Below, piece after piece: positions 8,814 through 13,819 of a stretch of 64,000 nt of DNA. Every line of letters begins with the position of its first letter. Within the stretch, counting starts at the first letter, position 1. The stretch is taken from assembly GCA_022771805.1 (NCBI GenBank), contig JALELM010000002.1:62001-126000 (forward strand), in the 5' to 3' direction. Made by a program: the position numbers and the translations under genes. This DNA comes from Veillonellaceae bacterium (GTDB taxonomy: Bacteria > Bacillota > Negativicutes > Veillonellales > Negativicoccaceae). The notes beneath the pieces are model-generated. The model made no database searches. It saw only the letters and a list, made by a program, of their open reading frames with translations, and was not told where the DNA came from.

Positions 8814-10010
8814 TTAAGACGCTGTCTCCCCCTGTTCCCGTTCCTGCCAATACAATATAAAGGTTGCCGCCAGGGCGATAGCGCTTAACAGCGCAAAGCC
8901 GGCCAGCGCGGCGGAAAAGTCTCCCGCATCTCCCGCCCAAGCCACGATCAATACGGGGCCGGCAATCCCCGCTGCGGCCCAGGCCGTCAACAAACGTCCG
9001 TGGATTGCGCTGAGATGCGCCATGCCGTAACGCTCCGCAAGTGTCGCCGGCAGGACGGAAAAGCCGCCGCCGTAGCAGGTAACGATGAGCGCCAGTGCCG
9101 GATACACGACAAACGGCGGCACGGCTTGCGTCAGCAGGAGATAGGCGGGAATCTGCAGGAGGAAGAGCAGCGCATAGGTCGTCAATCTGCCGATGCCGTC
9201 CGAAATACAAGCCCAGCCCAGACGGCCGATGCCGTTAACGACGCCCAACAAGCCGACGAACGCCGCCGCCTGTGCCGGTGTCAGGCCGGCCTGCGCCGCA
9301 GCCAGCGGCGAGGCGATACTCAAAATGCCGATCCCGCAAGTAATATTGATGAAGAAAATAAGCCAAATGAGGTAAAAAGCCCGTGTACGTACCGCCTCCC
9401 GCACCGTCATGCCGGTATACCGGCGCGCGCCGTCCGTTGTCGCCGTCGCTGGCGGCGCGAGATAGAGAGATGCCCCCGTCATCACGATACCGTAGACTGT
9501 CGCCAGAACCCGAAATGCCGTCGGCAGATCATACGCCGTCATCAGCCTTTGCCAAGCCGGGCCGGCAATGAGTGCCGCAAAGCCGAAACCCATAATCGCC
9601 AAACCCGTAGCCATTCCCTTGCGCCGCGGAAACCATTTCACGAGCGTAGCCACGGGCGTAATGTAGCCGATCCCGAGGCCGATCCCGCCGAGCAGGCCGT
9701 AGGCAAGATACACCGGCCACAGCGCCCCCGCCGCCAACGCCTGCGCCGTGCCGTACATCCCTCCGACAAAACACGCCGTTGCCGCCAGACCCGCACGCGA
9801 AGGTCCGATCCGCTCCACCCAGCTCCCCAGGAATGCCGCCGATGTTCCCAACGCCGCAATCGCCAAAGAAAATACCCACTGCACCGCGGCCAAATCCGCT
9901 CCCGTCGCCCGCATAACAGGCTGTACCAAGACACTCCAGGCGTACACGCTGCCGATGCATAAATGCATCAGAACGGCTGCCGCCGCCATCCCCCAAGCTG
10001 TCCTCTTCAT
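8814..10010 (-). CDS. MFS transporter, oxalate/formate antiporter (OFA)-like family
   Basis: A 398-residue, 12-helix major facilitator. Its opening (MKRTAWGMAAAAVLMHLCIG, then SVYAWSVLVQPV) and the first-half segment LLGGIGLGIGYITPVATLVK followed by WFPRRKGMATGLAIMGFG are characteristic of the OFA branch, which exchanges or takes up small mono- and dicarboxylates. The substrate cannot be read from sequence. The ATG at 10010 was chosen over the upstream in-frame start because GGGAGGG lies just upstream of it and the added 31 residues resemble nothing. It is divergent from the TAXI/TRAP operon. A terminator hairpin lies in its leader only about 20 bases before the start codon, so expression may be controlled by attenuation. 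Confidence 0.85.
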   Translation of the reverse strand: MKRTAWGMAAAAVLMHLCIGSVYAWSVLVQPVMRATGADLAAVQWVFSLAIAALGTSAAFLGSWVERIGPSRAGLAATACFVGGMYGTAQALAAGALWPVYLAYGLLGGIGLGIGYITPVATLVKWFPRRKGMATGLAIMGFGFAALIAGPAWQRLMTAYDLPTAFRVLATVYGIVMTGASLYLAPPATATTDGARRYTGMTVREAVRTRAFYLIWLIFFINITCGIGILSIASPLAAAQAGLTPAQAAAFVGLLGVVNGIGRLGWACISDGIGRLTTYALLFLLQIPAYLLLTQAVPPFVVYPALALIVTCYGGGFSVLPATLAERYGMAHLSAIHGRLLTAWAAAGIAGPVLIVAWAGDAGDFSAALAGFALLSAIALAATFILYWQEREQGETAS

Positions 10011-10028
10011 TGCGATCCCTCCCGATAT

Positions 10029-10068
10029 AAAAAGACCGTCTGCACAGAAACGATCTGCCCAGACGGTC
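10029..10068 (-). terminator. Leader terminator (possible attenuator) before the MFS gene
   Basis: On the minus strand, GACCGTCTG (10060-10068) and CAGACGGTC (10034-10042) form a perfect 9-bp stem followed by TTTTTATAT, directly before the MFS ribosome site. GACGGT further upstream in the leader (about 10116-10121) could pair with ACCGTC of the first arm as an antiterminator. No known riboswitch class was recognised. Confidence 0.6.
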
Positions 10069-10227
10069 GGCAACTCGGGTATTCCACACAGCATGTAGTC
10101 CATTCTACTCGTACCGTCAGCTGCATGGCCGCTAAATTATATGTCCATTGTACAAAAATTTTCCGCCTTCGTCTATAGGCGTAACGAACTTCCCCGCTCA
10201 TGTATACAAAATTCATTTCCCCGCCGC

Positions 10228-10256
10228 TTGCATATTCGAGAAAGCAATGATACAAT
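10228..10256 (+). promoter_or_regulatory. Promoter of the TAXI/TRAP operon
   Basis: TTGCAT (10228-10233), a 17-bp spacer and TACAAT (10251-10256). Predicted start near 10263, about 145 bases before the first gene. Confidence 0.75.
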
Positions 10257-10262
10257 GATGTC

Positions 10263-10370
10263 AATTAAATGAACCGCTCGGTTCTATACGGTATGCCATT
10301 CGGCATAGTCGGCAACGGCGTCGGCAAAGTTCCTTGCGCTGTGCCGTAAGGAGCATCGGCTCCTTTTTTT
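10263..10370 (+). promoter_or_regulatory. Riboswitch-like leader ending in a terminator
   Basis: The leader holds hairpin GAACC/GGTTC (10271-10284) and hairpin TATGCC/GGCATA (10292-10307). An 8-bp stem TCCTTGCG/CGTAAGGA follows (10331-10338 with 10345-10352). The intrinsic terminator is AAGGAGC-ATCG-GCTCCTT plus T5 (10348-10370). The 8-bp stem and the terminator share AAGGA (10348-10352) and exclude each other, the usual antiterminator/terminator arrangement. No class that I can identify (B12, TPP, FMN, glycine, SAM, fluoride, guanidine) matches. Confidence 0.6.
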
Positions 10371-10406
10371 ATTTGCCGGAAATCGGCAGAAAGGAAGGTA
10401 ATACAG

Positions 10407-11369
10407 ATGAAACTCAATACATGGAAACGAGCCACCTTGGCCGCCGGTTTGGTAACGGCAATGCTTATCGCAGGCTGCGGCGGTAACGATGGCGGCGCGA
10501 AACAATACCTCAATATCGGCACCGGCGGTACCGCGGGTACCTACTATCCGTTGGGCGGCGCCATGGCGGAAATTTTGAATAAAAACCTGCCGAATATGAA
10601 TGCAACGGCGCAGAGTACGGGCGCATCGGTTGCCAACGTAAATATGCTGAAAGACGGCTCCATTGACTTGGCACTGATCCAAAACGACATCGCCTACTAC
10701 GCGGCGAACGGCACGGAAATGTTTGCGGGCAAGCCGGTCACCAACTTGCGCGGCGTGGCGACATTGTACCCGGAAACCATCCAGCTGATTACCTTGCAGG
10801 CGACCGGCATTCAGTCCGTCAGCGACTTGCGCGGCAAGCGGGTAGCCGTCGGTGCGGCAGGCTCCGGAACGGATGCGAACGCCCGGCAGATTTTGGAAAC
10901 ATTCGGTCTGACTTACGACGATATCGACGTTCGCTACCTGAGCTTCGGTGAAGCGGCAGGCGCGCTGAAAGACGGCAACGTGGACGCCGCTTTCGTCACG
11001 GCGGGCTTCCCGACCGCAGCGGTTCAGGACATCGCCGTCACGAACCCGATTGCGCTCATCCCGGTCACCGGCGCGGAGCAGGAAGATTTGTTGGCGAAAT
11101 ACCCGTACTACACGGCAATCACCATCCCGGGCGGCACCTACAACGGCGTCGATACCGATACTCCGTCGGTTTCCGTTCGGGCGATGATCGCCGCCACCGA
11201 CAAGCTCTCCCCGGAACTCGGCTACGATGTCACGAAAACCATCTACTCGCACTTGGATCGTCTCGCAGCGGCACACGCCGTCGGTAAGATGATCACCAAA
11301 GAATCGGCACAGGACGGCATGTCCATCGAAATGAATGCCGGCGCGGCGAAATTCTTCGACGAAAAATAA
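10407..11369 (+). CDS. TAXI-family TRAP transporter substrate-binding lipoprotein
   Basis: A 320-residue extracytoplasmic solute receptor. The signal peptide ends in a lipobox (LIAGC, Cys at about 24), so the mature protein should be a lipoprotein. The TAXI signature follows (YLNIGTGGTAGTYYPLGGAM), with LALIQNDIAYYA and RVAVGAAGSGTDANARQIL further on. These proteins capture small organic acids such as glutamate or related carboxylates and hand them to an ion-driven permease. The substrate here is unknown. First gene of a three-gene operon with DUF1850 and the fused permease, behind a riboswitch-like leader. Ribosome site GGAAGG. Confidence 0.93.
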   Translation: MKLNTWKRATLAAGLVTAMLIAGCGGNDGGAKQYLNIGTGGTAGTYYPLGGAMAEILNKNLPNMNATAQSTGASVANVNMLKDGSIDLALIQNDIAYYAANGTEMFAGKPVTNLRGVATLYPETIQLITLQATGIQSVSDLRGKRVAVGAAGSGTDANARQILETFGLTYDDIDVRYLSFGEAAGALKDGNVDAAFVTAGFPTAAVQDIAVTNPIALIPVTGAEQEDLLAKYPYYTAITIPGGTYNGVDTDTPSVSVRAMIAATDKLSPELGYDVTKTIYSHLDRLAAAHAVGKMITKESAQDGMSIEMNAGAAKFFDEK

Positions 11370-11375
11370 AAGCGA

Positions 11376-11873
11376 ATGCAACGACGGTATTACTTCGGGC
11401 GGATCGCGGGCGTACTGTTACTTTTGTGCGGTGTCTGGTATGCGACCCGCCCGCATGTTTTTTTGTACGCCGGGACGGAGTGGCATTGGCTCGGCAGCGC
11501 CGTCGCCGGTAAACCGCTGACGATATCCTATCGGCATTCCGTCCAACGCACCTACGCGGAGGAATACCTGGAAGTCAACCCGACACTGGACGGCTGGATA
11601 CTGACCGGCACAAAGTACCGCTCCCTGGCGGTCGGGCTTCCGTTTCTCCCCTCCGAGGGGACATATCGTCATGTCGATGACGATTTTATTCTTACACTGC
11701 AGCGGAAAATACCGCAACTCGATTTACGAGTCGGCGTCGGCACGGAATTGACTCTGCGCACGGTGCAAACCTATCCGCTCTGGCGGACACAACCGCCGGG
11801 AACCCTTGTCGCGATACGGATTTTACCTTTGTGGCAAGGCTTGGCAAACGGTATATTACATCACGGGAGGTGA
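11376..11873 (+). CDS. DUF1850 protein of the TAXI/TRAP operon
   Basis: A 165-residue protein with one N-terminal transmembrane helix (about residues 8-25, GRIAGVLLLLCGVWYAT) and an outside domain. Recognisable DUF1850 features are the central SYRHSVQRTYAEEYLEV and the later GLPFLPSEGTY. DUF1850 genes typically sit between a TAXI receptor and a fused TRAP permease, exactly as here; their role is not established. It starts 6 bases after the previous stop with only a weak ribosome site (AAAAGCGA), suggesting translational coupling, and ends 5 bases before the permease start. Confidence 0.85.
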   Translation: MQRRYYFGRIAGVLLLLCGVWYATRPHVFLYAGTEWHWLGSAVAGKPLTISYRHSVQRTYAEEYLEVNPTLDGWILTGTKYRSLAVGLPFLPSEGTYRHVDDDFILTLQRKIPQLDLRVGVGTELTLRTVQTYPLWRTQPPGTLVAIRILPLWQGLANGILHHGR

Positions 11874-11878
11874 GAGAA

Positions 11879-13819
11879 ATGACGGATAACGGACGTGAGC
11901 AGGCGGCGAATTCTTCGATTGCGGAGGCAATCAGGGAGCTCGACCGCGAAGCGCGCACCGCGGAATACGGCGGGATCAGCGCGAAACTCATTTCTTTCAT
12001 CGCAATCTGTTTCTCTTTATTTCAACTGTATACGGGCTTATTCGGTGTCTTGGATGCCCAACTCCAACGCGCAGTACATCTGGCGTTCGGCCTCGTACTC
12101 GTCTACCTGCTGTATCCGATCCGGCCGCAACATCGGCTGCGTTTCGCCGTACATCCGATCGATGCGGCTTTGGCACTTCTAGCTGCCGTGCCGCCCTTGT
12201 ACCTCATCATGAATTATCACGAATTGGTACTCCGTGCCGGCAATTTCACGTCGACGGATTTCGGTGTCGGCCTGCTCGGCGTCCTTCTGGTCATTGAAGC
12301 CGCGCGGCGCGTGGTCGGGATCCCGATGGTCACGGTGGTCGGCATATTTCTGGCCTATGCCTTTCTCGGCCCCTATATCCCGGGCATCCTCGGGCATCGC
12401 GGCGTGACGTGGGAACAGCTGGTCAGCCATCTTTTCTATACGACAGAGGGCGTGTTCGGCATCCCGCTCGGCGTCTCCAGTACGTTCATTTTCCTCTTCA
12501 TCCTGTTCGGCGCGTACTTGGAATCGACGGGGCTCGGTCACTTCTTCATCGATCTCGCCAATGCGGTCGCCGGCTGGGCGCGCGGCGGGCCGGCCAAAGT
12601 CGCCGTCCTCTCCAGCGGGCTCATGGGTACGGTTTCCGGTTCTTCCGTGGCCAACGTGGCCGGCACCGGCTCGTTTACGATCCCGATGATGCGGAAACTC
12701 GGCTACAATCGGGAATTTGCGGGAGCGGTGGAAGCCGCCGCCTCCACGGGCGGCCAGCTGATGCCGCCGATCATGGGTGCCGCCGCATTCCTTATGGCGG
12801 AATTCGTCAGCGTCCCGTACATGGAGATCGTCAAAGCGGCGACCATTCCCGCGCTTCTCTACTTCCTCGGCATTTGGCTCGGCATTCACTTTGAAGCGCG
12901 CCGGAAAAACCTCCAAGGCGTGCCGCGGGATCAGCTCCCCAAAACCTTGCAGATTTTTCGGGAACGAGGTCATCTGGCCATTCCCCTCGTTATTATTATT
13001 TACCTGCTGGTCAGCGGCTATACGCCGATGCGGGCGGCGCTGATGGGCATTTTCCTGACGGTGGCCGCCGCCATGCTGCGCCGCAGCACGCGACTGTCGC
13101 CGCGCCAAATCCTGCAGGGGCTCATCGACGGCGCGCGCAATATGCTCTCCGTCCTCACCGCCTGCGCGGCGGCCGGGATCATCATCGGCGTCGTCACGCT
13201 CACGGGTGTCGGACTGAAGATGGCTTCCGCCCTCTTGGATCTGTCCGGCGGCAATTTCCTCGCCGTTCTGTTCTTCACGATGCTGACTTCCCTGCTGTTG
13301 GGAATGGGCGTCCCGACCACGGCGAACTATGTCATCACTTCGACCATTGCCGCACCGGCACTCATCCAACTCGGAGTGCCGATCCTCGCGGCGCATATGT
13401 TTGTCTTCTATTTCGGGATCATTGCGGACGTCACGCCGCCGGTAGCCTTGGCGGCCTATGCCGGCTCCGCCATTTCCGGCGGAAATGCACTGAAAACCGG
13501 CGTGCAGGCCTCCAAACTGGCCATCGCCGCCTTCCTCATTCCCTACATGTTTGTCGCTTCTCCCGTCCTGCTCATGCTGCATGCCGATGTCCTGTCCGTA
13601 CTGCTGGCATTGGCGACGGCCATCATCGGCATGATCGCGATCAGCTCGTCGCTGATCGGCTACCTGCTGGTAAAAGAAACGACCTGGGAGCGCTGTTTCT
13701 TTGCGCTGAGCGGGATCTGCCTGATCGATGCCGGCACCTTGACGGATCTCGTCGGTCTCGGCGTTCTCGCGCTGCTCTTCCTCAATCAGTATCGGCGCTG
13801 GCGGCGGGAACAAAAATAA
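11879..13819 (+). CDS. TRAP transporter permease, fused 4TM/12TM subunits
   Basis: A 646-residue membrane protein joining the small (DctQ-like, about residues 35-170) and large (DctM-like, about 175-620) TRAP subunits, as is usual for TAXI systems. The large-subunit motifs SSGLMGTVSGSSVANVAGTG, GGQLMPPIMGAAAFLMAEF, MGVPTTANYVITSTIAAPAL and FGIIADVTPPVALAAYAGSA are conserved. It couples uptake of the substrate bound by the TAXI lipoprotein to the sodium or proton gradient. The ATG at 11879 is preferred because GGGAGGTGAGAG lies just upstream; an in-frame start 48 bases earlier would lie inside the DUF1850 gene. Confidence 0.93.
   Translation: MTDNGREQAANSSIAEAIRELDREARTAEYGGISAKLISFIAICFSLFQLYTGLFGVLDAQLQRAVHLAFGLVLVYLLYPIRPQHRLRFAVHPIDAALALLAAVPPLYLIMNYHELVLRAGNFTSTDFGVGLLGVLLVIEAARRVVGIPMVTVVGIFLAYAFLGPYIPGILGHRGVTWEQLVSHLFYTTEGVFGIPLGVSSTFIFLFILFGAYLESTGLGHFFIDLANAVAGWARGGPAKVAVLSSGLMGTVSGSSVANVAGTGSFTIPMMRKLGYNREFAGAVEAAASTGGQLMPPIMGAAAFLMAEFVSVPYMEIVKAATIPALLYFLGIWLGIHFEARRKNLQGVPRDQLPKTLQIFRERGHLAIPLVIIIYLLVSGYTPMRAALMGIFLTVAAAMLRRSTRLSPRQILQGLIDGARNMLSVLTACAAAGIIIGVVTLTGVGLKMASALLDLSGGNFLAVLFFTMLTSLLLGMGVPTTANYVITSTIAAPALIQLGVPILAAHMFVFYFGIIADVTPPVALAAYAGSAISGGNALKTGVQASKLAIAAFLIPYMFVASPVLLMLHADVLSVLLALATAIIGMIAISSSLIGYLLVKETTWERCFFALSGICLIDAGTLTDLVGLGVLALLFLNQYRRWRREQK

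Follow-up and report, generated by a model that had tools for sequence, protein, structure and literature searches.

Here we present the leader of a TAXI-type TRAP transporter operon from the window, a 64,000-nt stretch of DNA from a member of the Negativicoccaceae, as a real, regulated on/off transcription attenuator. It is most likely controlled by the cell's ANTAR response regulator through one hexaloop hairpin, and the best explanation of the arrangement is nitrogen-responsive ANTAR antitermination of a TAXI importer, probably of the glutamate type; we infer the binding and the direction of control in the first of these statements and the signal and the substrate in the second. The observed basis comprises the sequence elements, covariation of the hairpin stem, the association of the hairpin with nitrogen genes, the presence of an ANTAR regulator-kinase pair, and the folding alternatives of the leader. 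On balance, we also lean slightly towards a broader reading, in which a class-wide ANTAR regulon of the Negativicutes would use single-hexaloop attenuators lacking the recruitment hairpin thought necessary, and in the window's family the single hexaloop would drive a switch with three states (competing helix, antiterminator and terminator) that governs a TAXI importer. The features of the promoter, leader and operon are as follows.

10228-10233, plus strand: -35-like element TTGCAT, read directly from the sequence
10248-10256, plus strand: extended -10 element TG-A-TACAAT (TG 10248-10249, TACAAT 10251-10256), 17-nt spacer from the -35, read directly from the sequence
10271-10284, plus strand: hairpin 1, 5 bp with a tetraloop, from folding; not conserved in the relative G001
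10292-10307, plus strand: hairpin 2, 6 bp, abutting the hexaloop hairpin, from folding; present, with altered base pairs, in each of the four family members
10308-10325, plus strand: P2-type hexaloop hairpin GTCGGC-AACGGC-GTCGGC with a 6-bp stem, predicted ANTAR binding site
10310-10346, plus strand: competing helix (arms 10310-10324 and 10333-10346) of the minimum free energy structure, which opens P2 and does not engage the terminator
10329-10354, plus strand: antiterminator, 10 bp, 10329-10338 with 10345-10354, from folding
10348-10371, plus strand: intrinsic terminator AAGGAGC-ATCG-GCTCCTT (10348-10365) and U tract, from a terminator scan and folding
10407-11369, plus strand: TAXI-family TRAP solute-binding protein (TIGR02122), related to glutamate-binding 1us4, from family model and structure match
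11376-11873, plus strand: DUF1850 protein of the TAXI operon, from a domain search
11831-13819, plus strand: fused TRAP permease (TIGR02123), from a family model

With a putative transcription start at about 10262 and the TAXI ATG at 10407, the leader is 145 nt long, as a first-pass annotation of the window had it. That annotation called the promoter strong, a description that suits the extended -10 element, the -10 box being kept in two same-family TAXI leaders (L003 and L004), but not the -35 element, which has only 3/6 consensus positions and for that reason escaped the automatic scan. The two small hairpins it reported were recovered at 10271-10284 and 10292-10307, the loop of the latter not being of ANTAR type, and the part it overlooked, a third hairpin with a 6-nt loop at 10308-10325, is the conserved one. 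The antiterminator stem, drawn there as 8 bp at 10331-10352, is present but longer, and the AAGGA said to be common to antiterminator and terminator extends to AAGGAGC.

Folding bore out the proposal of two mutually exclusive forms. In the absence of the terminator 3' arm, the lowest-energy fold contains hairpin 1, hairpin 2, P2 and the antiterminator (-35.8 kcal/mol), and the full leader folds with the terminator formed and P2 lost to the helix 10310-10346 (-41.3 kcal/mol). When P2 is held, the antiterminator form, at -35.8, is more favourable by 4.5 kcal/mol than the terminator form that shares its hairpins, at -31.3; these alternatives are energy calculations, not kinetics. Because holding P2 favours the antiterminator energetically, a protein that holds P2 would switch the operon on. 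The attenuator is conserved in relatives, the antiterminator unevenly: L004 folds like the window leader and its antiterminator is clear, L003 is weaker, and L005 has no evident antiterminator.

We propose the following scheme. With the regulator inactive, the hexaloop hairpin would melt into the longer helix, the terminator would fold and the TAXI operon would be off. Activated by its PdtaS-like kinase, the ANTAR protein would bind the AACGGC hexaloop and hold the hairpin; the downstream RNA thereby freed would form the 10-bp antiterminator, consuming the 5' arm of the terminator, and the operon would be transcribed.

Conservation of the hairpin was assessed in 16 TAXI leaders, namely those of the window and three relatives (L003-L005) from its family (f1, four genomes), eleven Dialister-like genomes (f2) and one Megasphaera-like genome (f3). 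The promoter-leader-terminator plan is common to all and the sequence hardly so, the exception being the 6-nt-loop hairpin, with loop consensus RANGRN. G at loop position 4 is found in 16/16, and position 1 is A except for G in three Dialister-like leaders; in the window, where the loop occupies 10314-10319, positions 1 and 4 are A and G. For a 4-bp P2 stem in 13 distinct sequences, 88.5% of cells are paired, and 12 cells are changed on both sides, against 4.0 in shuffles, a value reached by 0/500 shuffles; sliding the pairing partner abolished the signal. In one leader, that of G014, the stem is only 2 bp. Most TAXI genes of Selenomonadaceae-, Acidaminococcaceae- and Sporomusaceae-like genomes have no P2 leader directly upstream.

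The same element stands before other genes. A pattern search of other Negativicutes for a P2-type hairpin followed by a U tract returned matches before amtB-glnB, DASS carboxylate carriers, 5-oxoprolinase, ethanolamine permease and corrinoid proteins, and many of these leaders have a promoter of their own. The gene names were read from the sequences, only amtB being confirmed by a family model; one match (L198) was discarded as a T-box leader. At 30 amtB loci, an A1/G4 hexaloop hairpin is at the base of 28/34 upstream terminators. The hexaloop is not a general property of terminators, being found at 27/383, 26/354 and 18/241 in three unselected 400-kb stretches (7.0-7.5% of 978). Furthermore, when sites were picked by loop and closing pair only, they were about seven times denser before amtB than in the controls, and their next two stem positions paired in 86% and 86% of cases, as against 35-42% in controls. 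It counts against the ANTAR reading that this strongly enriched set belongs to families other than the window's, whose genomes lack amtB. Seven amtB loci (L277, L278, L286, L288, L291, L292 and L294) carry two successive hexaloop-terminator modules, the first GGC-AANGRN-GCC and the second GAC-AANGGC-GTC, seemingly a pair of attenuators arranged in tandem; of the two modules it is the second, GACAAYGGCGTC, that the window core GRCAAYGGMGTC matches. Also, ACATCARCAA is conserved directly 3' of the -10, near the inferred start, in amtB leaders L280, L282, L283, L286, L288, L294 and L301.

Within the window's family, the link is to glutamine synthetase. A full P2 and terminator are present upstream of this gene in G002, and the P2 sequence GTC-AATGGR-GAC lies 47-51 nt upstream of it in G000 (the window genome, 1.44 Mb), G002 and G003; the G000 site, at 51 nt on contig C9, was found by pattern and has a 3-bp stem. 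In about 0.8 Mb of the window genome scanned, there was no second intergenic P2 with at least 4 bp and a U tract. The genes with the element thus include amtB-glnB, glutamine synthetase, 5-oxoprolinase and ethanolamine permease, all belonging to nitrogen management, which suggests that, across the Negativicutes, ammonium uptake, glutamine synthesis and organic-nitrogen import are under the control of a single ANTAR pair. Candidate members of such a regulon are the genes behind seven hexaloop-terminator leaders (L205, L207, L208, L209, L210, L212 and L215), which, named by eye only, are an ATP-grasp-like cluster, 5-oxoprolinase, ethanolamine permease, corrinoid proteins, a chemoreceptor-like gene and a sodium:solute symporter cluster.

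The regulator itself is encoded by 61/61 genomes of the order, the window genome included, a distribution that permits no presence/absence contrast. In the window genome, its ANTAR domain (contig C2, 12952-13104; PF03861, E 3.9e-17) is part of a REC-ANTAR response regulator adjoining a kinase with PdtaS-GAF and HisKA_2 domains, and the protein aligns over its full length with EutV (6wsh) and with Rv1626 (1s8n), so that the pair resembles PdtaS/PdtaR. In the EutV-RNA structure, Tyr164 and Met172 contact the RNA, stacking on G4 and plugging the loop (PMC8934654), and both are invariant in five aligned proteins, the window genome's among them; relative to EutV, the window genome's protein keeps Lys143, has Arg for Lys147, and differs at Asn173 and Arg175. 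A hairpin pattern of this kind implies control by a protein without naming it, and another RNA-binding protein might recognise the same hexaloop and control the attenuator. We consider this very improbable, given the universal ANTAR protein of the order and given that Ramesh 2012 (PMC3369931) describes, as the signature of ANTAR antiterminators, an A1/G4 hexaloop located where a terminator begins its stem ahead of nitrogen genes.

The first-pass annotation read the leader as a ligand-responsive riboswitch of a class it did not recognise, in which binding of an organic acid or amino acid to the RNA would shift the balance between terminator and antiterminator. The architecture agrees with this, and in Rfam searches of the leader, at the gathering threshold and permissively, no class reached threshold, the best permissive match, Atu_C8, being chance (18.3 bits, cut-off 50). 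Moreover, the leaders of the window's family have in common an 18-nt block, GTCGRCAAYGGMGTCGGC, of which no further copy with fewer than two mismatches was found in G000 and G001. This block, however, is a single small hairpin, with surroundings poorly conserved even inside the family. No conserved aptamer-sized structured core was found in relatives; beyond the family only the hexaloop hairpin is conserved, and in the Dialister-like leaders the transcript ahead of it is only about 11-22 nt long. The same hairpin also precedes functionally diverse nitrogen genes, and a new riboswitch class is accordingly very improbable. An unregulated, constitutive partial terminator that carries the hexaloop by chance would fit the observation that the entire stretch is more stable than shuffles (z -3.6) but just slightly so once the terminator 3' arm is removed (z -1.5); the covariation of the stem across three families and the amtB and glutamine synthetase associations make it highly implausible. 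Leader-peptide attenuation, in which the position of a ribosome on a short ORF would select the form, was rejected, since the two ORFs that overlap the leader, MNRSVLYGMPFGIVGNGVGKVPCAVP and MPFGIVGNGVGKVPCAVP, have no ribosome-binding site and no counterpart in L003, L004 or L005.

The ANTAR-controlled attenuator can be set beside the known EutV/eutP, NasR/nasF and AmiR/amiE systems. As in these, nitrogen genes are preceded by an A1/G4 hexaloop hairpin located at an intrinsic terminator or beside it, in a genome encoding a REC-ANTAR protein and a kinase, and with 6 bp and the loop AACGGC the window hairpin conforms to the canonical P2 definition (at least 3 bp, hexaloop, A1, G4). Unlike these targets, it has one hexaloop only: the canonical target has two A1/G4 hexaloops, and eutP needs both (Ramesh 2012, PMC3369931). 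A second, upstream A1/G4 hexaloop (P1) with a short linker was found in 0/16 TAXI leaders and 2/45 amtB sites, against a random rate of 9%. The mode of action would differ also. In amtB leaders P2 overlaps the terminator directly, whereas in the window it has no direct overlap and, according to the folds, would act through the intermediate competing helix and a separate antiterminator. As modelled, the leader would behave like an ANTAR antiterminator, yet it lacks the second hexaloop, one of the features by which the canonical RNA family is defined. In Walshe 2022 (PMC8934654), an ANTAR dimer was found to bind hexaloops singly, the minimal binding motif was accordingly narrowed to one hexaloop, and more searching for such sites was urged, with the extent of single-hexaloop regulation left open. 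The one-hexaloop leaders, a large natural set of terminator switches, bear on that question, and, as judged from sequence comparison, this simplified one-hairpin form of ANTAR control probably recurs across the Negativicutes, although some of the amtB sites may already be in the supplementary tables of Ramesh 2012.

Among Rfam families, rli56 of Listeria (RF01483) has a consensus with a GAGC-AACGGG-GCUC hexaloop at a terminator base. The window leader has no match to it; over the amtB leader of G338 (L291 2881-2999, minus strand) it scores 33.9 bits, below the cut-off of 47, with E 4e-4 for a 401-nt stretch and 0.05 for the 12-locus search. This sub-threshold match suggests that RF01483 may be an ANTAR-type attenuator.

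The expectation that the leader could inform on the transporter's substrate was sound, and it is judged informative about the transporter. Among proteins of solved structure, those nearest to the TAXI binding protein are 1us4, a Thermus glutamate/glutamine protein, and, more distantly, 8s4j, which from its sequence we take to be VcGluP. In the 8s4j alignment, the VcGluP residues Tyr45, Ser75, Gln93 and Glu125 (PMC11574862) are kept, but not Tyr200 or Met201. Taken with the regulon, these comparisons hint at a glutamate-like substrate, weakly, because Tyr45 is common in TAXI proteins. With glutamine synthetase in the regulon, the importer probably serves the nitrogen (glutamate-type) supply, and its placement in the nitrogen regulon narrows the likely substrate of an uncharacterised TAXI importer to glutamate-like compounds.

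Upstream of the TAXI promoter, at 10201-10208, lies the palindrome TGTATACA, which is also found, at similar positions, before many TAXI genes in several families of the class and is probably a conserved operator for a DNA-binding transcription factor. Divergent from the TAXI operon, on the minus strand at 8817-10103, is a gene for an MFS transporter near the L-lactate/oxalate-formate families.
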